A stretch of DNA of 24,401 nt from a virus, in the IMG/VR virus record IMGVR_UViG_3300044994_000187, positions 1-24,401 of that record; one strand, given 5' to 3'. Both the position numbers and the translations under genes were made by a program. Each line of letters starts with the position of its first letter. Within the stretch, counting starts at the first letter, position 1. Positions 1 to 21,419 of the stretch are shown here, in pieces. The notes under the pieces were generated by a model. That model had not been told where the DNA came from. It worked only from the letters and a program-made list of their open reading frames with translations, and did no database searches.

Positions 1-427
1 GCAACACGGTCACCATCCGGTAATCCTGCAGGCTGAATCCCGTGACATCGATGATCGTGCTGTTGCTAACGGCCGCATCAGTAAGCTTCGCCCACAAGTC
101 TCCGGCATCCACATACGCCTTGCGCGCCGCGTGGTTGGCGTTAGTAGGGTTGGAGGCGGGCAGCGTCAGTTGTCCCGTCATGGACACGGTGCCGTCCGCC
201 TTGACAAAGGAGGAAGCAGCAATAGCCTGCGCAGTCCGCAACGGCGTCATCATCTTGGCGTTGTTGGTGCCCGCCTCCGCTTCCGCCTGGCTGGCAATGG
301 GCACCAACGTGTCCAGATTGGACAAGTCGTAGCGATGCACCTCTCCTGTCACCGCATCGCAGCCCAGCAGCGTATGCTGCGTGGCCGAAAAAGGGCTGAC
401 AAGCGAATATGAAAACACTGTAGGCAT
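1..427 (-). CDS. tail fibre protein, N-terminal part (cut by window edge)
   Basis: The first 142 codons of a gene that continues past the left edge with no stop. Residues 47-66 contain EAEAGTNNAKMMTPLRTA, a signature often seen in tail-fibre and tail-collar proteins. Residues 78-107 fit the fibre pattern DGT-x-MTG-x-LTLP...A-ARKAYVD, seen in repeated form in many phage fibres. The expected role is host recognition, with the N-terminus attached to the tail. The ATG overlaps the stop of the preceding 1526-residue virion gene as TGATG and has GGAGG 7 nt upstream, so the start is well supported and translation is probably coupled. The receptor-binding C-terminus is outside the window. Confidence 0.88.
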   Translation of the reverse strand, partial: MPTVFSYSLVSPFSATQHTLLGCDAVTGEVHRYDLSNLDTLVPIASQAEAEAGTNNAKMMTPLRTAQAIAASSFVKADGTVSMTGQLTLPASNPTNANHAARKAYVDAGDLWAKLTDAAVSNSTIIDVTGFSLQDYRMVTVL

Positions 428-7781: not shown

Positions 7782-8248
7782 CGCCAACCCCTCGCCAGCT
7801 CAGCGCCACCGCGCAGCAAGGTCGCACCCGCCTGCAACCACGCAGACGATCCCTGATGCGCATACGCAGCCCCGGAAACCTGCGCGCCCAAGCCCTGGAG
7901 CTGCAACTGCCGGTCACGCGCACCGCCCATCAGCCGGATGTTGCTCACATCCTCAGCCGCCATGCGCTCGTTCTCGCCCGCAATCGTCAGCCACGATCCC
8001 GAAGTCCAAGGGTCGTAGCCGGACGCACCAGCCAAAGCGAGGTTCGAACTCGCCACCAACCGCGCGCGGCGCTGGCGCTCGTTCTCCTCCTGCGCCGCCT
8101 GAATGGCGTTCAGCTCCCGCTGCTCGTCCGCCTGCACCTGCTGGATGCGCGCCGCCGCCTGGCCAAAAGCAGCCTGCGAGCGCGCCGACGAATATTGCAT
8201 CGCAGCAGAAGCGACAGTGGCCGCAGCCATCAGGAAGGTCCAGCTCAT
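7778..8248 (-). CDS. small internal virion protein (T7 gp14-like)
   Basis: A 156-residue protein with a short hydrophobic alanine-rich N-terminus (residues 5-20), then a Gln/Glu/Arg-rich helix (about 30-65) likely to form a coiled coil, and a Gly/Ala/Gln-rich C-terminus. Size, this layout and the position directly after tail tubular protein B match the gp14 class of ejected internal proteins, thought to form a pore in the outer membrane. The ATG lies 3 nt after the tail tubular B stop, with GAGGTGAGG upstream. The stop overlaps the next start as ATGA. Confidence 0.8.
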   Translation of the reverse strand: MSWTFLMAAATVASAAMQYSSARSQAAFGQAAARIQQVQADEQRELNAIQAAQEENERQRRARLVASSNLALAGASGYDPWTSGSWLTIAGENERMAAEDVSNIRLMGGARDRQLQLQGLGAQVSGAAYAHQGSSAWLQAGATLLRGGAELARGWR

Positions 8249-8251
8249 CGC

Positions 8252-10426
8252 CTACATCCTCACCTCTCGGGCCAGCGACAAGACGCTGACCGAAGACCAC
8301 GGTTCGTCATTCTTTCGCATGATGCGCAACGCCCCGTCCTGCTGCCACCCGAACAAACGGGAACGACGCCACACATGCTCGTCGCGCTCAGCCAACACCA
8401 GCTTGCCAATGATCGGAGCAAGGTTCTCATCGAGAATCGGCAAATCGTCATGATCCCTCAACACCTGCTGCTCTCGAATGTGCAACCCCTCCACAGACAA
8501 GGAGGATCCCCCCTCGATGCGCACAGGATCAAAAGGACGGGCCAAGACGGCCGCCCGCACCACACGCAAGCGGCGGTTGTCGCTCGGCCCAAACTGGCCA
8601 TCGAACTTGACCGGATACACCGCCACGCCCCACACATACGGCACGCCGATGAACCAAGGGCCATCGGTCTCGTTCGCACCCACCGTATAGTTGATGTTGC
8701 CAGCCGTAGGCGTATAGGTGTTCAGCTTCTTCCTCTTGCCGCGCGACTCCATCAAATAGAAAGTGCCATCCGCAGTAGACACATGCGTAGTCGGCATCGT
8801 GCCACTGCCCGTCGTGGCCCTCCCCCGCGCACCATCCAAAGGCACCCCCCACATCTGCGGATGCAGAACCTCCAATGACAACAAAGGCGCAGGATCATCC
8901 CCGACCGCCTCGACACGCGAAACAACGATGAAAAGAAAACCGTCGCCAGAAGCGACCGCATGCACTTTCCCGGCAGGCCGCACCTGCGGCACATGGCCGA
9001 TTGTCCAACGGACAAACTGCAGCGTGCGCCCGCTCTCGCCGCTCCGCATGACCATCATCTGCCGCCAATCGAAGCGATCCGCTTCGAACATCTCGGCCGA
9101 CGCGCGCGTCGGAGAAACCAACAACTCCTCAGGCGCATACCGAGAACCGGACATGGCCGCCATGGAAAGCTGGTCGGAAGCAATCTCCATGTCAGGCGCG
9201 GCAATGTTGGCCGCCTCGGAACGAACCCGCCGCTCCAACTCCGCGTTGTCAAACGACAGGCGACGCAGCGTCACACGATCCGACTGCCAGTAGAACACCC
9301 CATCGTCCAGCGCCACCGGCTCGGAATGGTGCGCCCCAAAGTCGCCAATCAGGCGCGGCACAATGTTGGACGGAGACAAAGGCTTGCCGGAAGCCGTCTC
9401 GAAATAGCGCGCCCTGTTCGCACTCAGCACCAGCAGATAACGGGCACCATAGACATGCCGAATCTCGCCATCGCCCGAATTGGACAAGGTGACAGCAATG
9501 CCTTCCGCATCCCCGCCCTGCCCCTGGTCAAAGTTGTAGTAGGCCCCCGTGCATGACAACCACACCGCATCGGGCGCATCGCGCACCCCGCCGATCACCA
9601 ACCGCTGCTCAAACAAGCAAACGGAACGCGGATAGCCACGCCCACTGCTCCACGCCTGCTCTTCCCACCGAGGCATCGCCACGTTCGGCGTCAAGCCCGG
9701 AGCCTCGAAATTAAAGGTCGCCGCAGTCGGACTGGTATAAACCGTCATGGTCGCATGGACCCACTTGTTCGTGCTCGTGTCAAACACACGGAAAGCACGC
9801 CCCACCTGCGCCGCCGCGAAGGCAGCAGCCGACGTGGTGACGGTCCGAGCACCAGCGCCAGCACCACCCGTGTTGGTAATCGTCACCGCCTGCGGCGCAT
9901 AGCGATAGAAAGGCCACTTCGCCACACTGCCAGCCTCGATGGCATAAGCCGACATGGCAAAGCTTGTTTGGCCCGTGCGCCGTATCACCTGCGGTTCCAC
10001 GTCGGGATGCACCACGAACATCGTATCGAAAGCAGTCGCCACACGCACACGCTCGATATCGCATGCGCCGAACGTGATTGCAGAACCGCACGCCGTCACC
10101 GCAGGAAGGAACGTGCCGGACGTGAGGTTCTGGTCCCACAAATAGAACTGAACCACCACGTTGTTGCCGGACTGATAGAAGTAAGCCAGGTAGAGGCGGT
10201 CGTTGGAACCGATGAAGGCGTAGAGACGCACCTTTGTCGTTTGTCCGCCCGTCAGCGTCGTCAGGAACCACGTGCCAGGACGCGAGACCGCACCACCAGC
10301 AGCACGCGGCCAGCAGTTGACCATCCGCCGCGCCGCATTGCGAAGCTGCGGCGTGTCGCGGCGGCCACTCACGTCGTCGTCCAGCTCGCCCGCCACAAAG
10401 CTGGTCTGCAGCGTATCAACGCGCAT
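8252..10426 (-). CDS. tail tubular protein B (nozzle)
   Basis: A 724-residue protein, close to the length of T7 gp12 (794). It starts MRVDTLQTSFVAGELDDDVSGR, with the TSFxxGELD element typical of tail tubular B proteins, followed by an RNxxxxPRGG-like stretch (RRMVNCWPRAAGG) and W/Y-rich beta-strand sequence. It is expected to form the hexameric nozzle below the gatekeeper ring. The reading frame stays open upstream, but the ATG at 10426 is clearly the start because it makes a TGATG overlap with the tail tubular A stop and begins the recognisable family N-terminus. Confidence 0.93.
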   Translation of the reverse strand: MRVDTLQTSFVAGELDDDVSGRRDTPQLRNAARRMVNCWPRAAGGAVSRPGTWFLTTLTGGQTTKVRLYAFIGSNDRLYLAYFYQSGNNVVVQFYLWDQNLTSGTFLPAVTACGSAITFGACDIERVRVATAFDTMFVVHPDVEPQVIRRTGQTSFAMSAYAIEAGSVAKWPFYRYAPQAVTITNTGGAGAGARTVTTSAAAFAAAQVGRAFRVFDTSTNKWVHATMTVYTSPTAATFNFEAPGLTPNVAMPRWEEQAWSSGRGYPRSVCLFEQRLVIGGVRDAPDAVWLSCTGAYYNFDQGQGGDAEGIAVTLSNSGDGEIRHVYGARYLLVLSANRARYFETASGKPLSPSNIVPRLIGDFGAHHSEPVALDDGVFYWQSDRVTLRRLSFDNAELERRVRSEAANIAAPDMEIASDQLSMAAMSGSRYAPEELLVSPTRASAEMFEADRFDWRQMMVMRSGESGRTLQFVRWTIGHVPQVRPAGKVHAVASGDGFLFIVVSRVEAVGDDPAPLLSLEVLHPQMWGVPLDGARGRATTGSGTMPTTHVSTADGTFYLMESRGKRKKLNTYTPTAGNINYTVGANETDGPWFIGVPYVWGVAVYPVKFDGQFGPSDNRRLRVVRAAVLARPFDPVRIEGGSSLSVEGLHIREQQVLRDHDDLPILDENLAPIIGKLVLAERDEHVWRRSRLFGWQQDGALRIMRKNDEPWSSVSVLSLAREVRM

Positions 10427-11007
10427 CAGAACCGCCGCGCCCGCGTGAAAGCACCAAGGTCCATCACTTGCGACGGACGCGACTGCGCATTGTGCAGGCG
10501 CGCCGCACGGAATGCCGCCATCATCTGACGCTCCATCGCATCGGTTTTCTCGGCACTCTCCGTCAAGCCAAGGCACAAGGCATGCGCCAAACGCAGCTCG
10601 GCATAAACCCGGAACCACGCTGGCCAGTCATTCTCCCCGATCCGCGCCACATACGTCAGGACAGGCGGATGCGTGGATTCCCACGGCCACAAAAGACGCT
10701 GGTTGCTATGCAACCCATATTCCTGCGTCGGCTGACGCTCATGCAAATAGACGGTCATCAGCCGCAGAAAATCGGTCGGCAACTGCCACTGCGTCTTCCA
10801 ACCATCCGGAGGCGTGCCCGGCGCTTGCGTCAACGTCACCGTCTTGGCCGCAAAATGCCACGGATGCGCGGCAAACGCCATGTCGCGCTCCACGTCGTAA
10901 ATGGCCAAAGCCTGCACCGCAATCGGACCATCCTCGTCCAAGCTCGTCAAAGGGCGCTCGCCCAAACGGGCCAAGGCGGCGTTGATGGTGCTCAGCTTCG
11001 TCTGCAT
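10426..11007 (-). CDS. tail tubular protein A (gatekeeper / adaptor)
   Basis: A 193-residue protein starting MQTKLSTINAALARLGERPL, the usual opening of T7 gp11-like tail tubular A proteins (INxxLxxLGExP). It continues with the family's conserved WxF / LPxDFLRL / YLH pattern (WHFAAKTV near residue 50, QLPTDFLRLMTVYLHER near 74-90). The protein forms the ring between portal and nozzle. A purine-rich AGGGGG lies before the start. A 74-nt leader separates it from the small head gene and contains GGGGAGGG/CCCTCCCC inverted repeats near 11025-11056. Confidence 0.92.
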   Translation of the reverse strand: MQTKLSTINAALARLGERPLTSLDEDGPIAVQALAIYDVERDMAFAAHPWHFAAKTVTLTQAPGTPPDGWKTQWQLPTDFLRLMTVYLHERQPTQEYGLHSNQRLLWPWESTHPPVLTYVARIGENDWPAWFRVYAELRLAHALCLGLTESAEKTDAMERQMMAAFRAARLHNAQSRPSQVMDLGAFTRARRF

Positions 11008-11080
11008 CCATGCCCCCTAAGCGAAGGGGGAGGGAAGGTCGCCCTCCCCTCCCCCCGATCCACTCGGCGGAACCCCCCGC

Positions 11081-11365
11081 TCAGGCGAGGTAGTTCTGCA
11101 ACGTCGTCACAGTGCCCGCCTGCGAAGCCGAAGTCACCATGCACAACATGAAACCCGGCGTGCCGCCAGTCTCCACATGCGCCATGATGATATCGCCCCG
11201 GTTGAGAAGATGCGTCGCGCCGTTGAAGTAGCCGGACGTTAGCACCGTCGTGCGGTTGTCAGGCGTCGAGTAGAACCACAGGCGGGGCGACCGCTCCGTG
11301 GCCGTGCCGCCATAAGCCCCGGCAAAGACCGGACCCGGCAGAAGCGTTCCAAGAGTCAAAGGCAT
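11081..11365 (-). CDS. small beta-rich head protein, possible decoration protein
   Basis: A 94-residue protein, rich in Gly, Thr, Ser and Val with little charge. The central stretch (TSGYFNGATHLLNRGDIIMA) is of a kind I recall in small proteins encoded directly after the capsid gene in podoviruses of Alphaproteobacteria. It probably folds as a compact beta structure and may bind the capsid surface, as cement proteins do. This role is inferred from position and composition. AGGAG lies 9 nt before the ATG and the gene follows the capsid stop by 12 nt, so it is likely expressed at a high level. Confidence 0.75.
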   Translation of the reverse strand: MPLTLGTLLPGPVFAGAYGGTATERSPRLWFYSTPDNRTTVLTSGYFNGATHLLNRGDIIMAHVETGGTPGFMLCMVTSASQAGTVTTLQNYLA

Positions 11366-11377
11366 GGTCCGTTCTCC

Positions 11378-12196
11378 TCAGAGGTCATACAGCTTGCGCT
11401 TCACGCCAGTCTGGTCGATGAGCTTCGCGCCCATGCTCATCGAACCCACGATGTTGTGCGCCGCACGCTCGCCATTCCACGTCACGTCCACGCTGATCTC
11501 AGCGCCGATGGCAGCACCCATCGCCGTCTTGTGCCAGAAGTAGCAGAACTTGTCGGCACCGGACGCCGTGCAGCCGGAGTAGGGCATCCACGTGAAGCCC
11601 GCCCACACCTTCGACGGCACACGCGCCGTCCAAGGCTGGTCGCTGACATACTCGGCGCTGGAAAACTGCTGGATCCCCAGCAGATCGCCCCACGCCTCCC
11701 ACGGCACGATGGCATAGGTCTGGCCATCGAGCGGCACGTCGTCCTTGCCGAACGTCTCCAAGGCCGCCACAGGCCCGGAAGCCGCCGTCCACACGGACGG
11801 AGAGCCGTTGTCGATGTAGCCCGTCGCCTGGTCGGCCGCCGTGATGATATCCTGATCCATCGCACGCCCAAGCGCCCAAGTGATGGCGTTGGTCAGGATG
11901 GCACGCTCGTCATGGTTGATCTTCAACTCATCGAGCTTGTCCACCAGCTCGCGCGCGTAGCGGTCGGTCAGCGTGATCGTGACCGTCCCACGGTCCGCGT
12001 TCATCAGGGGGATTTCGCCACCACGCGGCTTCGAGACGGCAGAACCCTTGCCGATCTTCTGCATCGTGGTGTCCATCGCGCCCTTCACGGTCTTGACGCG
12101 AACCGTCCCACGAAGCTGGGAACCCTGGCGCTGGAACGCCTCGAAAACTTCGGTCTCGTAGCTTTTGACAAAAGAAGTATCGATGTTCTGCGGCAT
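11378..12196 (-). CDS. major capsid protein
   Basis: A 272-residue protein between scaffold and tail genes. It begins MPQNIDTSFVKSYETEVFEA, a typical opening of short podovirus capsid proteins (xFVxxYxxEVxxAYQ). It contains the RGTV / KPRGGEIP loop region and a C-terminal segment (VDVTWNGERAAHNIVGSMSM) of the kind that carries the capsid A-domain in this group. It is shorter than T7 gp10A (344) and shows no added Ig-like domain. GGAG is 10 nt upstream of the ATG. Unlike most neighbours the gene is not overlapped by the preceding one, which leaves space for separate control. Confidence 0.9.
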   Translation of the reverse strand: MPQNIDTSFVKSYETEVFEAFQRQGSQLRGTVRVKTVKGAMDTTMQKIGKGSAVSKPRGGEIPLMNADRGTVTITLTDRYARELVDKLDELKINHDERAILTNAITWALGRAMDQDIITAADQATGYIDNGSPSVWTAASGPVAALETFGKDDVPLDGQTYAIVPWEAWGDLLGIQQFSSAEYVSDQPWTARVPSKVWAGFTWMPYSGCTASGADKFCYFWHKTAMGAAIGAEISVDVTWNGERAAHNIVGSMSMGAKLIDQTGVKRKLYDL

Positions 12197-12433
12197 TTCC
12201 GCTGCTCTCCACTTTCAACCTGATCCTGGTTGTCCGTCTCAAGCAGGCTCAGGGGTTCCGGCCTCCACCGCCCCATAGCCCCGCTTCCGGGCCTGCCCCC
12301 GTATGTGACACGGGAGGGGCTTGCAATGCAAGGGGAGACAGGCCATCCTAGGACCGTCTCCGTGTTGTGGGTTTCCTTCTCCCCCAAAACTCAGGGGGGT
12401 GGAGATTGCCTCCACCCCCCCCCTCTTTTCCTC
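12197..12433 (-). promoter_or_regulatory. leader of the capsid gene with strong hairpin
   Basis: This 237-nt gap is by far the longest inside the late gene block. It holds a perfect 11-bp stem (12394-12404 with 12410-12420, loop of 5) directly after the scaffold stop. On the minus strand the stem is followed by TGAGTTTTGGGG, a poor terminator tail. It also contains the near-palindrome CTTGCAATGCAAG at about 12320-12332 and CCCGT/ACGGG arms next to it. I see no convincing promoter hexamers. The stem may act as a partial terminator or as an RNA-stabilising 5' end set before the most abundantly needed product. Confidence 0.5.
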
Positions 12434-13174
12434 TCAACCCTGCTTCGCGAAGAACTGCTCGGCACGCTCGAACACCGACTTCCGGTAGTTGGAGTCGGTA
12501 TAGTATCGCTTGTCGCGCATGGCCGCCCGCACCTCCTCCTCGCTCGTAAAGGGCGCATTGGCCGCAGAAACCGGAGCCGCACCGCCACCCTTGCCGGGCA
12601 TGCCCTCGGCACCGCCCAAACGCACCACCTCCTCCAACGCCTCGATGACCTCGGCACGCTGCGCCACGCCCTGGAGGGCGCGGTAAGCCTTCTCGGACAG
12701 GTTCGCCGCAAGGTAGCCGTCGAGCTGCGCCAGCCGCTCATCGGCACGCTCGCCCAGCTTGGCCCGCTCCGCCTTCATGTCAGGCAAAGTCCCAGCCACC
12801 GCCTTGGCAAACAAACCCACCGCTTCCGTGAACGCCCCCTTCGGCAGCTTGTGACGGTGCGCCCACTCGCGCGCCTCCTTCGCCAAAGGGTCATCCGCCT
12901 CGATGCGGAACTCGAAGCCCTGCGGCACCGCAAAGCCCTCGGGCAGCGCCAGCTCATAAGCGTCGGGATTCTCAGGCAAATCCTTCGCCATCTCGGCGCG
13001 CAGCTCGGCCAGCAGCGTCTCACGCCGCTCGCCAAGCTTCTTCTCCAACTCGACATAGCTCGCCGCCAACGCCTCCGGCTCCTTGAACTTCGCCGGAAGC
13101 CACGCCGGACGCTCCGGCGCAGCAGCCTCGGGTGCGTTCTCCGCCACAGGGGCGGGCGCTTCCGTCTCACTCAC
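12434..13174 (-). CDS. capsid scaffolding protein
   Basis: A 246-residue acidic, helical protein. Residues 22-44 contain RPAWLPAKFKEPEALAASY, a hallmark of phage scaffold proteins (PEWLP-KFKxxExLAKSYxELE), followed by a long charged coiled-coil region and a basic C-terminus with many R and K (from about residue 215) that would contact the capsid shell. It is needed for procapsid assembly and normally leaves before packaging. It starts with GTG inside the last codons of the upstream small gene (8-nt overlap) with GGAG 8 nt before. Confidence 0.88.
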   Translation of the reverse strand: MSETEAPAPVAENAPEAAAPERPAWLPAKFKEPEALAASYVELEKKLGERRETLLAELRAEMAKDLPENPDAYELALPEGFAVPQGFEFRIEADDPLAKEAREWAHRHKLPKGAFTEAVGLFAKAVAGTLPDMKAERAKLGERADERLAQLDGYLAANLSEKAYRALQGVAQRAEVIEALEEVVRLGGAEGMPGKGGGAAPVSAANAPFTSEEEVRAAMRDKRYYTDSNYRKSVFERAEQFFAKQG

Positions 13175-13370
13175 TGGACTTCTCCTTCTGCTCCAAGCGG
13201 GTAAACAAGTCAGCGATCACGGACCGCTGACCCTCGCGATACGCCAGCTCGCCCTCCGTGAAAGGCGGCCTCGCCACCGTCGCATAGCGCGCCATGAGAT
13301 AGCGCGTCAGCAACGGACCAGCCGCGTTGAAGGCGCGCTGAACCGCCAACGTCACCTCATCGTCGTTCAT
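13167..13370 (-). CDS. small protein between portal and scaffold (Bbp19-like?)
   Basis: A 67-residue protein starting MNDDEVTLAVQRAF, with the later element FTEGELAYREGQRSVIADLF. Small proteins with an EGQRxxxxL helix occur between portal and scaffold in several podoviruses, and I recall the Bordetella phage Bbp19 type as similar; that link is tentative. Function is unknown. The ATG overlaps the portal stop as TGATG, with AGGAG 6 nt upstream inside the portal gene, so the gene is very likely translated. Confidence 0.75.
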   Translation of the reverse strand: MNDDEVTLAVQRAFNAAGPLLTRYLMARYATVARPPFTEGELAYREGQRSVIADLFTRLEQKEKSSE

Positions 13371-14938
13371 CAGAAGCTCCTAGGCTGGCCACCACCCATG
13401 CCACCCGCAGCAGCCGCAACCGCCTGCGCCAACGCCGGATCGGCATTGCCCAACTGCTGCTGCATCGCCCCGATCTGCGCACCCAAACGCGCCTGCTCCT
13501 GCGGCGAGATGAGAATGTTCGGCGGCACATCAAACAACCGCGCCAGCTCCTGCGCAAAGCGCGTCGGATCCACCTGCGTCATCAACACCTGCGGGCCGAA
13601 CAGGGAACCAATCGTCTGCGCCAACTGCACCTGACGCTTGCCCAACGCCATCGCACCCGCACGCGCCAAACCGCTGAACGGCTCCACACGCACCGTCCGG
13701 CCATCGATCACCGGCATCTCGATCATCCCCGCACGCTTGAGCAGATACCGCAAGCGCGCAATCAAAGGCACGCAGAACTCGGACCAGATGCGCTCATACG
13801 CCGGACCGAGCTGCCGCGCCAAGTCAAGCATCCGCTCCTCAACCTCAAAAGCCGTAGGCGGCGTGCCCTGCCTCGGACCAAGCGTCTCGTTGTAAAGCAT
13901 GCGGCGAATGGAGTGTTGAAGGTCGGCAATGACCAACTGGGTCAAGTCCACCTGCACCCGCTGCGTCAACGGCTGCAACCCCTTGCTCCCAACGGCAATC
14001 GGCAGGATCGCGCCGGGCACCATCACCGCCGTCTCGGGGTTGAACACCCCGTCATCCTCGGCCTGCCACAACCCGCCGAGCTGCAAGTCGGCACCGCGCA
14101 GCAGCTTCTCCTTCACCGCATTGAGCGTGCGCACGGACGGCAACGCCTGAATCGCCGGACCAATCCCGTAGATATCGCCGCTCGCAAGACTCATCCGGCC
14201 ATAGACAAACGGGCATGACCCCTCGCCCTGATAGGTCCTCTCCCACATGATCGAAGACCGCTCGCCATGCGCCAGCAAAAGGCCATGGCGATACCGCTCG
14301 CCCACGCCATCCCCGTCCAGCTCGCAGAACTCCACCACGTCGTAGAGCCGGTGATCCTCCACGTCGGACGGCAACTCCACACGCGGATACCGCATCCGCA
14401 TCTGGCCAGCGCGGTAACGGTTCAGCACATAGAAGGCATCAGGCCGCGTGCGATGCCACGCAGCGAACCAAACCTGCGTCATCGGCACAGGCTCGAACAC
14501 CAGCCCGCCAGGAGACACAGGATCGTAGGCCACACGCATCAGCCAGTTGCCGAACCCCACGGCGTCAATGAGACACTCCGTCACAGCCGAGTAGAAGTTG
14601 CTGTAAGCCATGCGCTCGAAAATGTAACGCTGCACGTCCGCCAAACGCTGACGCTGCTCGTCGGACGCGCCCTGCATCTCCAAACGCGCCCACTCCACGC
14701 CAGTCGGCATCACCCCCGACTGAATGCGCGCAGCACACTCGGGAACGCCTACCACCGCCGTGTCGTCATACAACTCCGTCGCATCCAGCGCCGAGGACAA
14801 ACTGTCCGTCTCCAAGCGGCGACGGCCCGGCATCATCAAGCTCAGCACGTCCCGCCAGTAAGGCTCGTAAGGCACACGCCAACGCTTCGCCTCGGCCCAA
14901 CGGGCAAGCACGCCGACCGCCGAAGGATCCTTCCTCAT
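13370..14938 (-). CDS. portal (head-tail connector) protein
   Basis: A 522-residue protein close to T7 gp8 in length (536) and pattern: N-terminal WxxAKxxRxPYEPYWRDVxxLMMP (residues about 14-37), SGVMPTGVEWARLEM near 75-90, the central CPFVYGRMSLASGDIYGIGP stretch near 240, and the helical LYNETLGPRQGTPPTAFEV region near 353. Twelve copies form the DNA entry channel at one capsid vertex and dock the terminase and tail. The C-terminus is Gln/Ala/Gly-rich. The ATG overlaps the preceding stop as ATGA and has no good ribosome site of its own, so coupling is expected. Confidence 0.95.
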   Translation of the reverse strand: MRKDPSAVGVLARWAEAKRWRVPYEPYWRDVLSLMMPGRRRLETDSLSSALDATELYDDTAVVGVPECAARIQSGVMPTGVEWARLEMQGASDEQRQRLADVQRYIFERMAYSNFYSAVTECLIDAVGFGNWLMRVAYDPVSPGGLVFEPVPMTQVWFAAWHRTRPDAFYVLNRYRAGQMRMRYPRVELPSDVEDHRLYDVVEFCELDGDGVGERYRHGLLLAHGERSSIMWERTYQGEGSCPFVYGRMSLASGDIYGIGPAIQALPSVRTLNAVKEKLLRGADLQLGGLWQAEDDGVFNPETAVMVPGAILPIAVGSKGLQPLTQRVQVDLTQLVIADLQHSIRRMLYNETLGPRQGTPPTAFEVEERMLDLARQLGPAYERIWSEFCVPLIARLRYLLKRAGMIEMPVIDGRTVRVEPFSGLARAGAMALGKRQVQLAQTIGSLFGPQVLMTQVDPTRFAQELARLFDVPPNILISPQEQARLGAQIGAMQQQLGNADPALAQAVAAAAGGMGGGQPRSF

Positions 14939-15147
14939 CGCGGAGCCAAGGACCGCTCGTCATTCATGAGGCTGCGATTGCCGCGCCCCACGCTCAAGAA
15001 ACCAAGACGCTCCTGCTCCACACGACGCGCCTCGGCCGCCTTCTCCTCAGCCTCGCGCCGCGCCGCCTCCTGACGCTGCCTCACCAGCTCAGGATCAGGC
15101 GGCGGAGGCGCAGGCGGCTTGGGAGAAGAAAAGATCGCACCCATCAT
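14935..15147 (-). CDS. small proline- and arginine-rich protein upstream of portal
   Basis: A 70-residue protein: an N-terminal segment with KPPAPPPPDPE (residues 10-20), a charged helix rich in R, E, A and Q (20-50) likely to be a coiled coil, and an RGN-x-SLM element at about 55-61. Such short proline-then-helix proteins are common next to portal genes in podoviruses, but no function is established. Two start codons sit in tandem (15147 and 15144). The second forms TGATG with the acetyltransferase stop, and GAAGGAG upstream can serve either. The stop overlaps the portal ATG as ATGA. Confidence 0.75.
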   Translation of the reverse strand: MMGAIFSSPKPPAPPPPDPELVRQRQEAARREAEEKAAEARRVEQERLGFLSVGRGNRSLMNDERSLAPR

Positions 15148-15584
15148 CCACGCTCCTTCACGAACACGGACATCCCCGGCTTATACCCCGCCGCACGCGC
15201 CAACGCCACATAGCCCGGCACCTCACCGGGGAAATGCCCGTGCATCAACACACGCGACGCACCCTGACGCCAACACCAGTCCTCGCCCGCCAGCAACAAG
15301 AGCCTCGCCACAGCCGTGCCACGCCACGGCGGACGCACATAGAACTTCACCACCTGCCCAAAAGACGGAACAAACAAGGGATCCACCGCCATCAGGCAGC
15401 CCCCGGCCACACGCCCGTCCTCCTCCACAGCCAGAAACCCCGCCATGCCCGGCATCGAAAGACCCCACGCCAAGCAACCCGGCGCATCATCGGACAACCG
15501 AACGCCCGCCTCCGCACACCCCTCGCGGAACAAATCGAGGACAACCCCGAGGTCGCCAGGACTAGCGCGCACGACGCGAGGCAT
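15144..15584 (-). CDS. GNAT-type N-acetyltransferase
   Basis: A 146-residue protein. The central segment KFYVRPPWRGTAVARLLL (residues about 88-105) matches the acetyl-CoA-binding motif A of GNAT enzymes (V-R-x-x-x-R-G-x-G/A). It is preceded by a beta strand (AGGCLMAVDP) and followed by YVALARAAGYKP, a typical GNAT motif-B end. The substrate cannot be told. Single GNAT genes of this size occur between terminase and portal in some podoviruses of Proteobacteria. I chose the ATG at 15584, which overlaps the terminase end by 23 nt, because sequence farther upstream in this frame is arginine-rich shadow of the terminase. Confidence 0.8.
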   Translation of the reverse strand: MPRVVRASPGDLGVVLDLFREGCAEAGVRLSDDAPGCLAWGLSMPGMAGFLAVEEDGRVAGGCLMAVDPLFVPSFGQVVKFYVRPPWRGTAVARLLLLAGEDWCWRQGASRVLMHGHFPGEVPGYVALARAAGYKPGMSVFVKERG

Positions 15585-17115
15585 AAGCACCCAAAGGACT
15601 ATAAGAAGCCGACGCACGCGCCTTCTGCGGCGGACGCGGACCACGCAAAAGCTGACGCCCCGCACCCGTGCCAAGACACGCATACTGCAACGCATCATGG
15701 ACATGCGAGAAGATGTTCTTCTCAGGCTCGGAAGCGAACCGCGTCGCTCCCGCCACCTGCAACCGCCGGATCCGGTAACCCCCGAGAAAGCCAGAACGCA
15801 ACGTCGGCGCACCCGGAACCGCACGGCTGCCCGGCCACACCAACAGCGCAGGACCCTCCTGGTTGCGGCTCAGGAGAAGGGAACGCACCGCGCCCTGACG
15901 CACATCGGGGTCGTTCGTCTCGGCCGGGAGAATCGGCAACCCACACGCAGCCGCAATCATGAACGGCGTCCGCGCATCCGTCTGGGCACGCTGGCTCCCC
16001 GCAGGATCGCCCCAAGCAATCCACTGCCGCTTCGACATATGCTCAGGAAACAACTGCATGAGGTCAGGCAACACCACGTCCTTCAAGAACTGCTCCAACC
16101 CCATGTTGGACGAAACCAGCTCACGCAACACACGCCGCTGGCCGTTCACCACCTGCATCACCACGCACGCAGGCGTCAGCCCGAAGTCAAAACCCAACAC
16201 CAGCTTGACATTCGGCACCACAGGAATCGGCTCCCGAGCACGATGAAACCCGTCGTCCCACTCGGGATACACCGCCAAGCCGTCCGCCGTGGACGCCAGC
16301 CGGTTCATGATATACTGGTCGATGTAGGCCTTCGATTTCCCCTGCGCGAGATCGAGGTAGTAGGTCGCACCAAGGTTGGAAGCGTTCTCCGCCTCGGGAT
16401 TGACACGATAGCCCACAACCGTCCGGCCGTCAGGCCCGAAATCCTCGATCAACCCACCCGGCTGACGAAACAACGCCCACCCAGGCGGATTCACCGGAAA
16501 CGTGTCACGCTCCTCAGGCGGCATCCACTCGGGAACCGGAGCCTCACCAAACAACCACGCCAACCAGCAATCCCCGTCCCAAGCATTGCTGTCCGCGATG
16601 AACCACTTGCGCGGAGGAATCGGCGAGCCAGGAGGCCGATAACGCCTCAGCCGCTCGTCGATCACATCAATGATCTCCTTCGACTGCTCCTTGATCTCGT
16701 TGGCCCACGCGCCAGTGAGATCGAGCGACCGGAGACTCCGCAACTGGTCCGGACGGTCCAGCGGAATGAACAACACATCCGCCTCCACATCCCCGAACCG
16801 GAACTCGTAGGTGTAAGGCGGAGACCACACCATCCGGCCCAAAGGACTCCCGTCAGGAAACCACTGCAACCACGTCGCCATCGTCGTGCTCTTGAGCTGC
16901 GGACCCGTGTTCCGCGTCACCAGCCAACGCGACCGGCGAATCCCGTCGTCGCTCGGCGGATAGGCACACGCCAAACGGAAAATCTCCATGCAGCACGCCG
17001 CAGACTTGCCGCTGCCCACAGGACCACGAATCACACGGAACGGCGCATCGCTCCGCATGAACTCCCGCAACACCCTGCCATCAGGGCGAAACTTCCGGGT
17101 GAACTCAACCGTCAC
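15562..17115 (-). CDS. terL: terminase large subunit
   Basis: A 517-residue packaging motor. Walker A is GPVGSGKS at residues 31-38. The Walker B end with catalytic glutamate is LTGAWANE at 133-140. The C-terminal RNase H-like nuclease has candidate metal ligands D310 (LGFDFGL), D370 (WGDPAG) and D474 (HVHDALQYA). It would pump DNA into the procapsid at the portal and cut the concatemer. It starts with GTG, in a GTGA overlap with the stop of the 267-residue frame upstream. The C-terminal tail is basic and low in complexity. A small-terminase candidate is not adjacent but about 6.6 kb away on the same strand. Confidence 0.95.
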   Translation of the reverse strand: MTVEFTRKFRPDGRVLREFMRSDAPFRVIRGPVGSGKSAACCMEIFRLACAYPPSDDGIRRSRWLVTRNTGPQLKSTTMATWLQWFPDGSPLGRMVWSPPYTYEFRFGDVEADVLFIPLDRPDQLRSLRSLDLTGAWANEIKEQSKEIIDVIDERLRRYRPPGSPIPPRKWFIADSNAWDGDCWLAWLFGEAPVPEWMPPEERDTFPVNPPGWALFRQPGGLIEDFGPDGRTVVGYRVNPEAENASNLGATYYLDLAQGKSKAYIDQYIMNRLASTADGLAVYPEWDDGFHRAREPIPVVPNVKLVLGFDFGLTPACVVMQVVNGQRRVLRELVSSNMGLEQFLKDVVLPDLMQLFPEHMSKRQWIAWGDPAGSQRAQTDARTPFMIAAACGLPILPAETNDPDVRQGAVRSLLLSRNQEGPALLVWPGSRAVPGAPTLRSGFLGGYRIRRLQVAGATRFASEPEKNIFSHVHDALQYACLGTGAGRQLLRGPRPPQKARASASYSPLGAYASRRAR

Positions 17116-17332
17116 GGGCCGGAATCACCAAACCCTTGTGATGCACAAGGCGAACCCCCTCCCGCATCGCAACCCTCCTCAAAATCTCCTCCCGACCCGC
17201 AGGCGGTATCCCCTCGATCACACGATCCAACTCCGCCGGAGTCGCATGAACCCCCCGCCACGGACCGAGAAGCCTTCTGACGCCGACGCGCAATCGCGCC
17301 AACTCCACAACGTCGCTCGGCAAGCCATACAT
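17105..17332 (-). CDS. 75-residue protein overlapping the terminase start
   Basis: No family recognised. The ATG at 17332 has a near-perfect ribosome site, AAGGAGGT, 8 nt upstream, and the stop falls 11 nt inside the terminase gene. The sequence looks protein-like: two short helices (VVELARLRVGVRRLL; AELDRVIEGIPPAGREEILRRVA) and a final strand-like LVHHKGLVIPARDG. It lies in another frame inside the end of the 267-residue gene. Third codon positions here are more GC-rich than in the competing frame, which favours this one. A small adaptor near the terminase is possible but unproven. Confidence 0.6.
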   Translation of the reverse strand: MYGLPSDVVELARLRVGVRRLLGPWRGVHATPAELDRVIEGIPPAGREEILRRVAMREGVRLVHHKGLVIPARDG

Positions 17333-17918
17333 CCAAACCCACCTCCTTCGCATCCACCCAACTGTTCATCCGCCGCAGCAACTTGCGATCCCTCGGCATA
17401 GGACCACGCGACCAACCAGAACTCAAAGGCGCATGGAACAAACGCGCCCTGTGCTTGGAATAAGGCCGGGGAACCAACACGATCCCCATCTCACGCGCCT
17501 CCAAAAGACGCTCAATCTCACTGATAAACACCGACACCACACGACCATCCAAATCCCGCAAAACTTTGGGATGCAGCAACGTCTCCACCAACTCACGCAA
17601 GCGCGTCTCGTCCTGCGGACGCAAATACCACGTGCGCGTCTCACGATACGGAACATCCCGCCACTCCGCCATCGCAACACCACGCGCCAAAGACTGGACA
17701 CGCCGCGCAGCCTCACGAGGCGCAGACTTGTAATGCTTGCCACGCAACCGCTGCGCCAACACGTGGTAATACGCCAAAAGCCGGTCATACCAAGGATGAC
17801 TCGGAAGCAACGGAAAACGCGGAAGCCCGTTCGCCCAATAGCCAGGAACATCCTGCGGATTCCGAAGCCCGGACGCACGCGGGGGAGAAGAAGGCTTAAA
17901 GCGCTTCCGATCGGACAT
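17112..17918 (-). CDS. hypothetical protein, first gene of the late block
   Basis: A 267-residue frame with no recognised family. It is basic, with N-terminal KRFKPSSPPRASGLRNPQD and aromatic segments (YWANGLPRFPLLPSHPWYDR), then a helical middle (about 100-160). Its last 70 or so residues become Gly/Ser/Cys-rich and overlap, out of frame, a 75-residue gene with an excellent ribosome site, so the C-terminus is doubtful. Against that, its stop makes a GTGA overlap with the terminase start, as at other junctions here. I start at ATG 17918; an in-frame ATG at 17930 is also possible, and neither has a clear ribosome site. TATGAT at 17982-17977 could be a -10 box but lacks a -35. Confidence 0.6.
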   Translation of the reverse strand: MSDRKRFKPSSPPRASGLRNPQDVPGYWANGLPRFPLLPSHPWYDRLLAYYHVLAQRLRGKHYKSAPREAARRVQSLARGVAMAEWRDVPYRETRTWYLRPQDETRLRELVETLLHPKVLRDLDGRVVSVFISEIERLLEAREMGIVLVPRPYSKHRARLFHAPLSSGWSRGPMPRDRKLLRRMNSWVDAKEVGLDVWLAERRCGVGAIARRRQKASRSVAGGSCDSGGVGSCDRGDTACGSGGDFEEGCDAGGGSPCASQGFGDSGP

Positions 17919-18035
17919 GGAACAGCTCATAGCAGAGGCAAGAGGGGGGAGGGAAGCCCGCAAGTTGGGGGGAAAAATCATAGAGGGGGTTTACGGCTCC
18001 CCACGCTGTCCCGACTTTTTCCCCTCCCCTGGCCC

Positions 18036-18317
18036 CCGCCCCCTCCCTTCGGTCGGGGGCGGTGGCCCGGCCGCCGCGCCCCTGCGGGGCGCGGCGGCTG
18101 TGGCCGCCCTTCGCTTCGCTGCGGGCGGCAATGCCCCCCTTCGGCTTCGCCTTCGGGGGGTGCGGCGGGTTCCGCTGGCTTCGCCAGCGTCACCCAAGGA
18201 AGGCCGCCGCGCCTTTGCGGCGCGGCGGCGTGCCACCGCTCCGCTGCGCGTCGCGGTGGGTCGCCCTCCTCCTGCTCCGCAGTCGGAGGGTGCGGCAAAG
18301 CCCACTGGCTGCGCCAG
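18036..18317. repeat. array of about nine consecutive GC-rich hairpins
   Basis: Stems with short loops follow one another: 18036-18062 (8 bp), 18070-18098 (13 bp perfect, loop TGC), 18103-18129 (7 bp), 18134-18160 (6 bp), 18173-18189 (7 bp, loop TTC), 18203-18229 (11 bp, loop of 5), 18233-18259 (7 bp), 18264-18290 (6 bp with an inner 4-bp stem) and 18305-18317 (5 bp, loop TGC). None has a T-tract, so they are not ordinary intrinsic terminators. Many loops contain TTCG or TGC. Similar palindromes are, from memory, common between genes in GC-rich Alphaproteobacteria. Confidence 0.8.
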
Positions 18318-18352
18318 GCCCAAAGGAACCAAACCCCGCCCACACGACAAAA

Positions 18353-18534
18353 ACAGACATACCCCGCAATCGGCCCAGAATCGCCGTAGAGAGGCATAAG
18401 GCACGCCCAGCTACCAAGGTAGCGGACAAATCGGAGAAGCCACTCCACGGCCTTCCTAGAGCCTTCCAGAGGCATGTCTAAGGACAACCCAACCCCGGCG
18501 CGGCCCAGCAAGCGACAAGGCTCAGCGCACGATG
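18353..18534 (+). repeat. long repeat, copy 1 of 3
   Basis: It begins ACAGACATACCCCGC and contains ATCGCCGTAGAG, the 14-nt dyad GCTACC-AA-GGTAGC at 18410-18423, then CCACTCCACGGCCTTCCTAG and GAGGCATGTCTAAGGACAACC. The same landmarks occur in the same order and at nearly the same offsets (dyad at +57, conserved block at +84) in the copies starting at 18582 and 19073. Confidence 0.8.
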
Positions 18535-18581
18535 CGCCAGGTCAAAGGGGTCAAAGCCTCGAAAGGCAAGTGCGTCAGAAT

Positions 18582-18804
18582 CAGACATGCCCCTAGAAAG
18601 CCCCAGGATCGTCGTAGAGCGGCCTCGGCACCTTCCAGCTACCAAGGTAGCAGCCACGCGGTTGAGGCCACTCCACGGCCTTCCTAAAGCGTTCCAGAGG
18701 CATGTCTAAGGACAACCCAGCACACACGGGCGGGCGGCCAGCCAGCGACACGCCTCAGCAAGCGCCCAACAGCCGCAAAAGGTCCAGCACATAAGCGGCG
18801 TCGG
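18582..18804 (+). repeat. long repeat, copy 2 of 3
   Basis: It begins CAGACATGCCCCTAG and contains GGATCGTCGTAGAG, the dyad GCTACC-AA-GGTAGC at 18638-18651 (offset +56), CCACTCCACGGCCTTCCTAA, and GAGGCATGTCTAAGGACAACC identical to copy 1. The downstream part (CAGCGACA...AGCAAGCGCCC...AGCCG) matches copy 3 better than copy 1. Confidence 0.8.
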
Positions 18805-19001
18805 TGGCACAAAACACACGCAACATCAGAAATCCCACACACGCCGTAGGGACTTTCGGGGAAAGAAAGCAAGCAAAAACAACGCAATAACCCTACAGAG
18901 GGGTCGGATATACCCCCTCCCCGCATCATACACCCGCATGCCGCGCCTCCGACGCTGCTCTAACCGATGCACTCCTGCCCCAGCCCGAATCTTCGGCTTT
19001 G

Positions 19002-19073: not shown

Positions 19074-19283
19074 CGACATGCCCCGCCAAGCCTCTAGGAT
19101 CGTCGTAGAGTGGCCTCCGCCCTTCGGCGCTACCACCCTAGCGGCCACATCGTCGAGGCCCTTCCACGGCCTTCCTTGCGCCTTCTCGGGCCATGTCTAT
19201 GCGCGTCCCTCGCGCGGCCAGCGAGCGACATGCTTTAGCAAGCGCCCGTCAGCCGTAGAGGGTCCTGCCTCTAAGCGGGTGCG
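19073..19283 (+). repeat. long repeat, copy 3 of 3 (diverged)
   Basis: It begins GCGACATGCCCCGCC and contains AGGATCGTCGTAGAG identical to copy 2. Its dyad is altered to CGCTA-CCACCC-TAGCG at 19128-19143, at the same offset (+56). CTTCCACGGCCTTCCTTG and CCATGTCTATG follow, and CAGCGAGCGACATGCTTTAGCAAGCGCCC parallels copy 2. The copy starts directly at the last half-site of the array at 19002-19073. Confidence 0.75.
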
Positions 19284-19715: not shown

Positions 19716-19768
19716 GAAACCTCCGTGGTCGTCAAGAGGGGCAACGAAGATCAGCACGAAGACCAGGT

Positions 19769-19846
19769 GCGACGCCCGGCCCTGGCGTCAACTACCCGCT
19801 CGCTTCGCTCGCTGGGGTAGTTGACTCTGCGGGCCTAGGGCGTCGC
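19769..19846 (+). ncRNA. compound 78-nt stem-loop in the leader of the 125-residue gene
   Basis: Three stacked perfect stems share one axis: GCGACGCCC (19769-19777) with GGGCGTCGC (19838-19846), GGCCC (19778-19782) with GGGCC (19831-19835), and GTCAACTACCC (19787-19797) with GGGTAGTTGAC (19815-19825). They are separated by small asymmetric internal loops and capped by a 17-nt loop, giving 25 base pairs in total. A second hairpin, GAGCAGG/CCTGCTC, lies at 19878-19896 just before the ribosome site. It could be a leader regulator, a transcription stop or a DNA cruciform site. The RNA call is an inference. Confidence 0.45.
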
Positions 19847-19920
19847 TTGGGAGAGGGCATGTTGAGCGAGGTTTGAGGAGCAGGACGGCCCTGCTCGCGC
19901 TCGGCAAAAGGAGAAAAGAG

Positions 19921-20298
19921 ATGATTGGCAGCAGCAAGGAGCAGTGGCAGACGCTCTATCGGGCGTTTCGCAACGCCCAACAGGGGCCGAGCGACGAGGA
20001 CGGATGGGTGCATCCCGACGTCGCCGCGTCCATCGCGGCGCAGGACGCCATCGAACTCGGTGCCCGCGCGGGCTTCTGCCTGCGCCACGCGCCCAAACTG
20101 CCGCGCGTCGGCTTCGGCGCGCTGCTCGCGAAGCAGGACTGGGAGCGTCCCGCTCCCGGTTCTGCGCGGACGCTGCCGCGCCATGTGCGCGGCATGATGC
20201 GCAGGGGAAAGATCAAGGCGGGAGGCTATGGCCCCCGCTGGGAACCCCATGCAATGCGGTGGCATTGCCGGACCGAGGATCTGCCGGAAGAGGGGTAA
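19921..20298 (+). CDS. hypothetical protein, first gene of plus-strand cluster
   Basis: A 125-residue protein with AAAGGAG 7 nt before the ATG; a longer in-frame start at 19873 has no such site. Residues 1-50 are helical (SKEQWQTLYRAFRNAQ; VHPDVAASIAAQDAIELGARAG). The middle is basic, and the C-terminus has Trp/His/Arg (WEPHAMRWHC). The basic stretch PRHVRGMMRRGKIKAGGYGP might bind nucleic acid. No family is recognised. It stands alone, followed by 377 bp without a gene. Confidence 0.7.
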   Translation: MIGSSKEQWQTLYRAFRNAQQGPSDEDGWVHPDVAASIAAQDAIELGARAGFCLRHAPKLPRVGFGALLAKQDWERPAPGSARTLPRHVRGMMRRGKIKAGGYGPRWEPHAMRWHCRTEDLPEEG

Positions 20299-20324
20299 AA
20301 ACAAACCCGCGCCTTCGGCGCGGG
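20297..20324 (-). terminator. intrinsic terminator facing left (minus strand)
   Basis: CCCGCGCC (20306-20313), a loop of 3, and GGCGCGGG (20317-20324) form a perfect 8-bp GC stem. Read on the minus strand it is followed by TTTGTTTTT (20305-20297), a proper U-tract. On the plus strand no T-run follows. It would stop leftward transcripts at the end of the 125-residue gene and so marks a possible minus-strand RNA coming from 20325-20600. Confidence 0.65.
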
Positions 20325-20510
20325 AGAGGACAGGGGCAGCCCTTGTTAGGCAAAGAAACAAGCCTAAATCCGGCCCCCGTCCCCGTCAAGGACTGCGGGC
20401 GGCTGCGCCGCCCTTGCCGCGCTACGCGCGGTTGCTGCGCAATCCTTGACAGGGCCGTGGTCCGGAGGAAAAGCGCTGCTATCGCCAACAAGGGCAGCCC
20501 CTGTCCTCTC
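20324..20510. repeat. 187-bp element bounded by 24-bp inverted repeats
   Basis: Left arm 20324-20347 and right arm 20487-20510 are inverted repeats of 24 bp with a single mismatch. Inside are GTCAAGGA (20385-20392) paired with TCCTTGAC (20443-20450), extended by TGCG/CGCA after one mismatch. Within that stem are two more hairpins, GGGCGGC/GCCGCCC (20397-20413) and CCGCGC/GCGCGG (20417-20431). TAGGC/GCCTA (20347-20366) forms another. No reading frame of note crosses it. It could be a small non-autonomous mobile element or a branched structured RNA. Confidence 0.7.
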
Positions 20511-20598
20511 AAAAAAGAAACAAGGGCCGCGCGCAGTTGCCGTGCCGTGGCCGCGTGCTGGCGCAGATCATCGCGCAGCGTGGGAGTGAAAAAAGTTG

Positions 20599-20627
20599 TT
20601 GACACCCTCCCCGACACTTGGTATCTT
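20599..20627 (+). promoter_or_regulatory. sigma70-type promoter for the 208-residue gene
   Basis: A perfect TTGACA at 20599-20604, a 17-nt spacer, and TATCTT (4 of 6, with the conserved T at position 6) at 20622-20627. The predicted start near 20634 leaves a leader of about 40 nt with CGGAGA before the ATG at 20676. It is the best bacterial promoter seen in the window and suggests host RNA polymerase reads this cluster early. Confidence 0.75.
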
Positions 20628-20675
20628 GACACTGGCGACGGATGGTCCGTTGCCAGACCCAACCGGAGACAGATC

Positions 20676-21302
20676 ATGCCCAAGAATCAGCCTTCCACCA
20701 AGACCGTAACCAGCGGATCGCCCATCGCGATCCGCTTCATGCCAAACCTGAAAGGCGCGCTCGACACCCAGAGGGCAGCCTCAATCGAGGAGGCAGCCCG
20801 CGCGAACGCGCAAGCCTTCATGCATGCCCTGAACAGCGCCGTTCAGGGTGAACTCTCGATCACATTTGACGAGGCTCGCGCATTTGAGCGCGAGCACCGC
20901 GATCACGGATTCGCCAGCGCCGCAAAGCGCGCGCTGGTGGAGCGCATCACAAATGCGCTCCTCGACCACGCCTCGGACAGGGTGGCGAACGCCACCGCTG
21001 TAGAAGACTACGTGAGGAGGAGGGTAGCCGAACTAAGCGAAGGCACCCCAGCCGCCGAGGTTGTAAGCGTTCAACTCGCCGAGAGTCTTGAACGCCTGGA
21101 CCACGCAATGGCCGAGGCCTACGAGGCCTCCGCCTTCGCGAGCGCAGTGCTCGCGGCCGCCGAAGCGGCAGGACTGAGCCGCTTCGAGCGGCGAGACTAC
21201 AGCTACGCCTCGCGCAAAGCGGCAATGCCCCGCGACAGCGAGAAGCCTGTGGTCGGGCTGACCGAGCGCCAGCGCGCGCAGCTCGCACGGCTGCGCAAGT
21301 AG
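20676..21302 (+). CDS. hypothetical protein downstream of the strong promoter
   Basis: A 208-residue helical, Ala/Glu/Arg-rich protein with no recognised family. The N-terminal 20 residues are polar and probably flexible (MPKNQPSTKTVTSGSP). Then come helices with IEEAARANAQAFMHAL, a charged EREHRDHGFASAAKRAL segment, VEDYVRRRVAEL and a C-terminal LTERQRAQLARLRK. The frame is open farther upstream, but the promoter at 20599-20627 and the CGGAGA ribosome site fix the start. Expression straight from a good sigma70 promoter suggests an early host-takeover or regulatory protein. That role is inference. Confidence 0.75.
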   Translation: MPKNQPSTKTVTSGSPIAIRFMPNLKGALDTQRAASIEEAARANAQAFMHALNSAVQGELSITFDEARAFEREHRDHGFASAAKRALVERITNALLDHASDRVANATAVEDYVRRRVAELSEGTPAAEVVSVQLAESLERLDHAMAEAYEASAFASAVLAAAEAAGLSRFERRDYSYASRKAAMPRDSEKPVVGLTERQRAQLARLRK

Positions 21303-21309
21303 CCGCCAC

Positions 21310-21337
21310 GGCTGGCCAGGCAGCCACCTGGCCAGCC
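21310..21337 (+). terminator. hairpin after the 208-residue gene
   Basis: GGCTGGCCAGG (21310-21320) and CCTGGCCAGCC (21327-21337) form a perfect 11-bp stem with a 6-nt loop, 7 nt after the stop codon. The tail is CTTCC, so any termination would be weak or Rho-aided. Confidence 0.5.
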
Positions 21338-21343
21338 CTTCCA

Positions 21344-21373
21344 GCGCGGAGGGTTCTCAGGAACCTTCCGCGC
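21344..21373 (+). terminator. second tandem hairpin
   Basis: GCGCGGAGGGTTC (21344-21356) with GAACCTTCCGCGC (21361-21373): 13 pairs including one G-T wobble, loop TCAG, tail CCCTTCCC. It lies 6 bp after the first hairpin. Confidence 0.45.
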
Positions 21374-21386
21374 CCCTTCCCACGCG

Positions 21387-21419
21387 CCGGGGAGAGGGGG
21401 CTACGCCCCCTCTCCCCGG
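21387..21419 (+). terminator. third tandem hairpin (15-bp perfect stem)
   Basis: CCGGGGAGAGGGGGC (21387-21401) with its exact complement at 21405-21419 and loop TAC, followed by ACCCCACACCCC and no T-run. Palindromes of the form GGGGGC-n-GCCCCC-GGACCCC are, from memory, abundant between genes of Acetobacteraceae and relatives. Confidence 0.45.

Follow-up and report, generated by a model that had tools for sequence, protein, structure and literature searches.

The window, by which we mean the whole stretch of DNA analysed, is the IMG/VR virus record IMGVR_UViG_3300044994_000187 at its full length of 24,401 bases (positions 1 to 24,401). Its leftward genes (427-18511) are structural, with T7-like capsid assembly, portal and major head matches, and its small early genes are transcribed rightward, starting at 18967. 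Between two of these early genes lies an imperfect foldback, carried by an insert that was delimited by junction alignment with a sister phage, L012 (95% DNA identity around terL). Besides the foldback, the insert contains an ORF, a terminator and a promoter-like site. The features are as follows.

19857-20636, unstranded: insert of about 780 bp relative to L012, which has about 5 bp there
19921-20298, plus strand: small ORF of 125 aa with no family match, in the same insert as the foldback
20296-20324, minus strand: intrinsic terminator-like hairpin with a T tail, adjoining the left arm
20324-20510, unstranded: imperfect foldback of 187 bp, whole element, from inverted-repeat, self-alignment and folding analyses
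20324-20347, unstranded: left outer arm, 24 nt
20363-20472, plus strand: match to the covariance model R1 (40.4 bits, E 5e-7)
20385-20392, unstranded: left strand of stem P1, GTCAAGGA, its first 7 nt invariant among relatives with one exception
20397-20413, unstranded: head hairpin a, GGGCGGC-TGC-GCCGCCC, an extra hairpin also present in L156 and the Nocardioides copies
20417-20431, unstranded: head hairpin b (P2), CCGCGC-TAC-GCGCGG
20432-20442, unstranded: mini hairpin P3, TTGC-TGC-GCAA, pair-changed here from the TCGC-TGC-GCGA of most relatives
20443-20450, unstranded: right strand of stem P1, TCCTTGAC
20487-20510, unstranded: right outer arm, 24 nt
20599-20627, plus strand: sigma-70-like promoter, TTGACA-17-TATCTT, preceding the next early gene (ATG 20676)

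The promoter that the earlier note had placed beside the element is a good one as a consensus match (10 of 12 positions). The structure model of the insert ORF had a pLDDT of 38.5, too poor for use, and a search of viral contigs found no relatives of either this ORF or the next early gene.

Other repeats and hairpins occur in the same part of the window. A partly palindromic repeat of about 125-145 bp, AGACATGCCCCTAGAAAG...AGAGGCATGTCT, is found at 18333-18480, 18567-18708 and 19075-19199, and also in L012 at 2394-2596 and 2804-3017; its several copies, in both orientations, lie at the divergent junction of late and early genes, and this zone is a possible promoter or origin region. The hairpin GTCAACTACCC..GGGTAGTTGAC at 19787-19825, upstream of an early gene, has a counterpart in L012 (4622-4660), GTCAACCACCC..GGGTGGTTGAC, in which the change keeps the pairing. 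Three consecutive strong hairpins (21310-21337, 21344-21373 and 21387-21419) fill the stretch 21310-21419 between two early genes. The early region of L012 encodes a DnaT-like domain protein and a DUF932 protein, at 9056-9316 and 12997-13872.

The outer arms of the foldback, which lie 139 nt apart, are 96% complementary with a single mismatch, as the earlier note had described. In a scan for inverted repeats with at most one mismatch within 250 nt, this was the longest of the window, and none of 60 Markov shuffles reached its length of 24 (maximum 19, mean 13.7). Aligned to its own reverse complement, the element showed 69% identity (E 3.6e-9), the best foldback of the window. Folding both strands of 20295-20600, a check that the note had proposed, bore out the structure: the predicted RNA fold has -173.4 kcal/mol on the minus strand (z -8.15) and -166.8 kcal/mol on the plus strand (z -7.74), and no shuffle equalled either value. 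The inner stems, at least three, that had been seen within the arms are better described as three short hairpins on an 8-bp stem, together forming a head at 20385-20450. A good leftward terminator does abut the left arm, where on the minus strand CCCGCGCCGAAGGCGCGGG-TTTGTTTTT is predicted to form a hairpin (20324-20306) followed by a tail (20305-20296); as a terminator scan found such sites to be no commoner in the window than in shuffles, this call rests on the quality of the hairpin, which has eight G-C pairs. No plus-strand terminator was found downstream of the element, and a tRNA/tmRNA scan found none. The suggested Rfam search gave chance-level matches only, also at a permissive threshold, and no family at the gathering score.

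Because folded RNA tolerates G-U and not A-C, transition mismatches tell the two strands apart. In the arms of the window element, each of the three transition mismatches is a G-U pair on the minus strand, which also has the better fold over the foldback, by 12.5 kcal/mol. Among the relatives introduced below, the wobbles of the Albimonas-type copies favour the minus strand by 14 to 1 in the inner arms and by 134 to 55 in the outer arms, counts that overstate significance because the copies share ancestry; for the window together with L012, L018 and L156 the counts are 9 to 0 (wider arms) or 7 to 0 (narrower arms), and for all nine virus contigs 9 to 3 (p 0.15). Of 78 Albimonas-type copies, 72 also fold better as the minus strand, as do L012, L018 and L156, and the plus strand folds slightly or clearly better in L194, L233 and L180. 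Taken together, the placement of G-U pairs and the terminator hint at the minus strand as the folded one, which is suggestive, not decisive.

A small regulatory RNA, running leftward from the right of 20510 to 20297 and acting on the early genes, would agree with a terminator exactly at the left end and with the better folding and G-U mismatches of the minus strand; however, no minus-strand promoter-like site of at least 8 matches lies to the right of the element in 20500-20760, L012 has no element at this place, and no gene association is conserved across the relatives. We consider such an RNA quite unlikely. The structured minus-strand RNA of the earlier note thus survives in part: covariation (see below), mostly minus-strand wobbles and the terminator speak for folding in that strand, whereas the lack of a promoter to the right, and the many relatives that are 3' or intercistronic rather than stand-alone genes, speak against an RNA gene.

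The arm search proposed in the earlier note found nothing, an exact arm 20-mer being absent from viral contigs, and the outer arms are therefore not the conserved part. As far as sequence comparison goes, the portion of the foldback with relatives is the head rather than the 24-bp arms. In the window the head reads GTCAAGGA-CTGC-[GGGCGGC TGC GCCGCCC]-TTG-[CCGCGC TAC GCGCGG]-[TTGC TGC GCAA]-TCCTTGAC, and the recurring pattern is GTCAAGGA-[hairpins]-GGTYGC-TGC-GCRA-TCCTTGAC. The element is a long paired rod with a three- or four-way junction at its tip, made up in the family of the invariant base GTCAAGG/CCTTGAC, a variable hairpin and a mini hairpin of the TCGC-TGC-GCGA type; in the predicted fold, part of the P3 mini hairpin competes with an extension of P1.

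A pattern of the head core had four matches in viral contigs (L012, L015, L018 and L017). The foldback of L015 is identical to that of L018 (z -11.6) and in both stands immediately ahead of an early gene; the L017 match is a coincidence within coding sequence. A distant DNA search with the whole element against phages and plasmids returned short weak matches only. Another copy lies between the prohead protease and major capsid genes of L156, and further virus contigs with the element are L194, L233 and L180, as well as two inovirus-like contigs encoding a secretin, Rep and an integrase (L189, 5175-5214; L248, 5076-5115). In bacterial genomes, 92 stretches matched the pattern, from Albimonas pacifica and a relative, Sulfitobacter, Roseibaca, a Rhodobacteraceae bin and Nocardioides bins, the last being a host assignment that needs care because these contigs are metagenome bins from one assembly set. 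The head recurs in Rhodobacterales chromosomes: in the order of A. pacifica, nine of 296 genomes matched, A. pacifica with at least 129 copies and the others with a single copy each; the reversed pattern had no match there. A consensus query also matched pBBR1, at a place without an annotated gene, and a Pseudomonas putida plasmid of the RepL/MobV type (2.3 kb). In rhizobial sym-plasmids it found a close variant, flanked by a DUF736 gene and a small ORF in the neighbourhood of traG, with DUF736/DUF2493 genes alongside. Outside Albimonas, a looser pattern did no better than chance in 115 class-wide genomes, and it gave mostly chance matches in viral contigs, where candidates were filtered by pairing; the hit rate of the class-wide covariance search is no estimate of prevalence, since 11 candidates per genome were scored.

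The model R1 was built from 26 bacterial copies only, with no phage copies, and finds the window element nevertheless. In an alignment of 24 rows from chromosomes, plasmids and phages, which includes copies found by model or similarity and which left P1 position 8 and the mini hairpin unconstrained, 85.7% of cells pair (67.3% when shuffled, 30.7-43.8% when slid), and the covariation score is 0.415, compared with 0.125 +- 0.014 (sd) for shuffles. The compensatory changes in relatives on which the earlier note had made its readings depend are thus present. Read from the alignment, the eighth P1 pair changes from A-T to C-G and T-A, and the mini hairpin from TCGC/GCGA to TTGC/GCAA, TGGC/GCCA and TGCC/GGCA, while the seven pairs GTCAAGG/CCTTGAC are fixed in the 24 rows, with one exception, a broken outermost G-C. 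As the searches started from the window core, only positions outside the search patterns are independent evidence; these are the C after GTCAAGGA, GGTYGC and the paired arms, since GTCAAGGA and TGCGCRATCCTTGAC were prescribed in the pattern first used on genomes.

By sequence, structure and covariation, the foldback belongs to one family with these copies. The family looks undescribed, as it has no Rfam match and no description of the motif was found among open-licence papers. It looks like a family of mobile structured elements, because the same head, with matched paired mutations, stands between genes of phages, plasmids and chromosomes. Outer arms are conserved within Albimonas only, not across hosts. 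In the Albimonas copies, further conserved arms (GCGCCTGTTCTCCGGAGCCGTCTCTCGC and its complement) surround the head in a rod of about 170-215 nt that closely resembles that of the phage, followed by CGCGGGCTTGTTCTT on the minus strand; the minus strand of the window element ends in CGCGGGTTTGTTTTT, and the common form of the two ends, CGCGGG..TTGTTYTT, suggests that the full-length design is shared.

Among Albimonas-type copies, 22 lie between convergent, 30 between tandem and 7 between divergent genes (as defined by an approximate gene caller), and several single copies lie 11-26 nt past a stop codon. This fits a REP-like gene context with mostly gene-end placement. Other copies stand directly 5' of a gene (L012, L018, L140, L120 and L143). 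At a comparable locus in two genomes (L112/L140 and L120), single copies immediately precede the start of a choline-dehydrogenase-like (GMC oxidoreductase) gene and follow an aldehyde-dehydrogenase-like gene, the gene names being judged by eye.

The nearest described elements, the CGTC REP superfamily (Di Nocera et al. 2013, PMC3733652), are mainly alphaproteobacterial sequences of 20-40 bp that lie downstream of genes, between ORFs in convergent or tandem arrangement; they have an unpaired CGTC tag and a CCA tail, and their 8-9 bp stem begins with AT and carries a loop of 4-5 nt. Our elements are likewise dispersed, mainly alphaproteobacterial palindromes that favour intergenic positions between convergent and tandem genes, plausibly act in RNA and have no known dedicated transposase, but their GTC is paired (with GAC in all rows but one), their stem is GTCAAGG, their head is branched and their unit is about 90-280 nt. 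They do not, then, belong to the CGTC REPs. We file them under dispersed palindromic repeats, with the branched head and the fixed junction as new traits, because the tag and stem of these nearest elements are absent. With the GTAG REP/REPIN/BIME elements of RAYT transposases they share intergenic location, high copy number in some genomes and a foldback of paired arms, but not the GTAG tag, which does not appear in the alignments. The Y1 transposase domain (PF01797) was absent from both copy-rich genomes tested, in which controls were detected, and the involvement of a RAYT was rejected for these two genomes.

At the site of the window insert L012 has no foldback. It has instead an insert of its own, of about 1.05 kb, at window position 19739/19740, with GGCA at both edges and a 280-nt foldback of the same head type just before a DUF4326 gene. 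Sister phages thus carry different inserts, each with a foldback of this kind. No target-site duplication was seen at the window insert, in agreement with the earlier note, whose other reading, a non-autonomous transposable element, holds insofar as the foldback is a member of a dispersed repeat family within an insert absent from L012, and is weakened in that the arms are not the conserved part. A passive REP/MITE-like repeat without phage function, its palindrome kept by template switching during replication, would accord with the intergenic dispersal and patchy copy number (from at least 129 to none), the position in this insert and the GGCA edges of the L012 insert. The missing Y1 transposase argues against it, as does the lack of a common terminal repeat or target duplication across hosts, and the strand-biased wobbles and fixed junction suggest selection on the folded form. 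We regard a purely passive repeat as unlikely.

A signal at the DNA level was also considered, in which one strand would fold, either single-stranded or within a cruciform, and a protein encoded by the host or the element would recognise the fixed GTCAAGG/CCTTGAC junction; it might start complementary-strand synthesis (sso, ssi, Frpo-like) or serve packaging. In f1 the packaging signal and minus-strand origin sit after the secretin gene, and in L189 and L248 the element takes the same position, 25 nt past the secretin stop, toward Rep. Such a role stays a candidate since some carriers of relatives pass through a single-stranded stage, among them pBBR1, the RepL/MobV plasmid and, near traG, the sym-plasmids, and it would agree with the DNA fold of the element (z -10.3) and with a P1 sequence fixed while the arms vary. 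Like Frpo/ssi (PMC11541004) and rolling-circle single-strand origins, which are found in plasmid leading regions and small RCR plasmids, the elements are long imperfect hairpins with TTGAC in the stem. They differ in that the sequences, as read, show no usable -10 after the TTGAC of P1 (in the window, L012, L018, L156 and L159 a TATAAT-like box is missing at a distance of 16-18 nt, so that an Frpo-type promoter was discarded), and in that copies also occur in double-stranded-DNA phages and, at 129 or more, in a chromosome. The wobble bias is as predicted for RNA folding, though G-T in DNA could mimic it. Overall, a DNA signal appears improbable.

Our leading explanation, held tentatively and at somewhat less than even confidence, is an undescribed REP/BIME-like family of branched-head foldbacks that act in RNA as transcript-end or intercistronic hairpins and probably spread as non-autonomous passengers. 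We infer that the folded molecule is RNA, marking transcript ends and gene borders. The transcript would fold into a very stable rod, which would mark a transcript end or gene boundary, block exonucleases and isolate neighbouring genes, and the adjoining terminator would stop leftward transcription. RNase III may cut the rod; T7-type intercistronic RNase III processing hairpins likewise lie between early genes of a podovirus, but the present rod is several times longer, is common to plasmids and chromosomes, and has a fixed junction. The copies would owe their spread to phages and plasmids, in which they probably travel as non-autonomous passengers. Those directly 5' of genes are not accounted for by a role at transcript ends alone, and action in RNA leaves the near-invariance of GTCAAGG/CCTTGAC unexplained. 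It is conceivable, if doubtful, that a host factor of wide distribution recognises the folded form of this invariant junction, and that for this reason one structured module is in use in some chromosomes and in mobile elements as unrelated as early inserts of podoviruses, capsid operons, intergenic regions of inovirus-like elements, and rolling-circle and conjugative plasmids. With its unusually clear paired substitutions and fixed junction, the family should make any binding factor that exists easy to isolate.

In summary, the foldbacks form a testable family of structured elements across phages, plasmids and chromosomes that is absent from Rfam. Together with the inserts that carry them, they offer a handle on the exchange of accessory genes, and of the boundaries of these genes, between phages.
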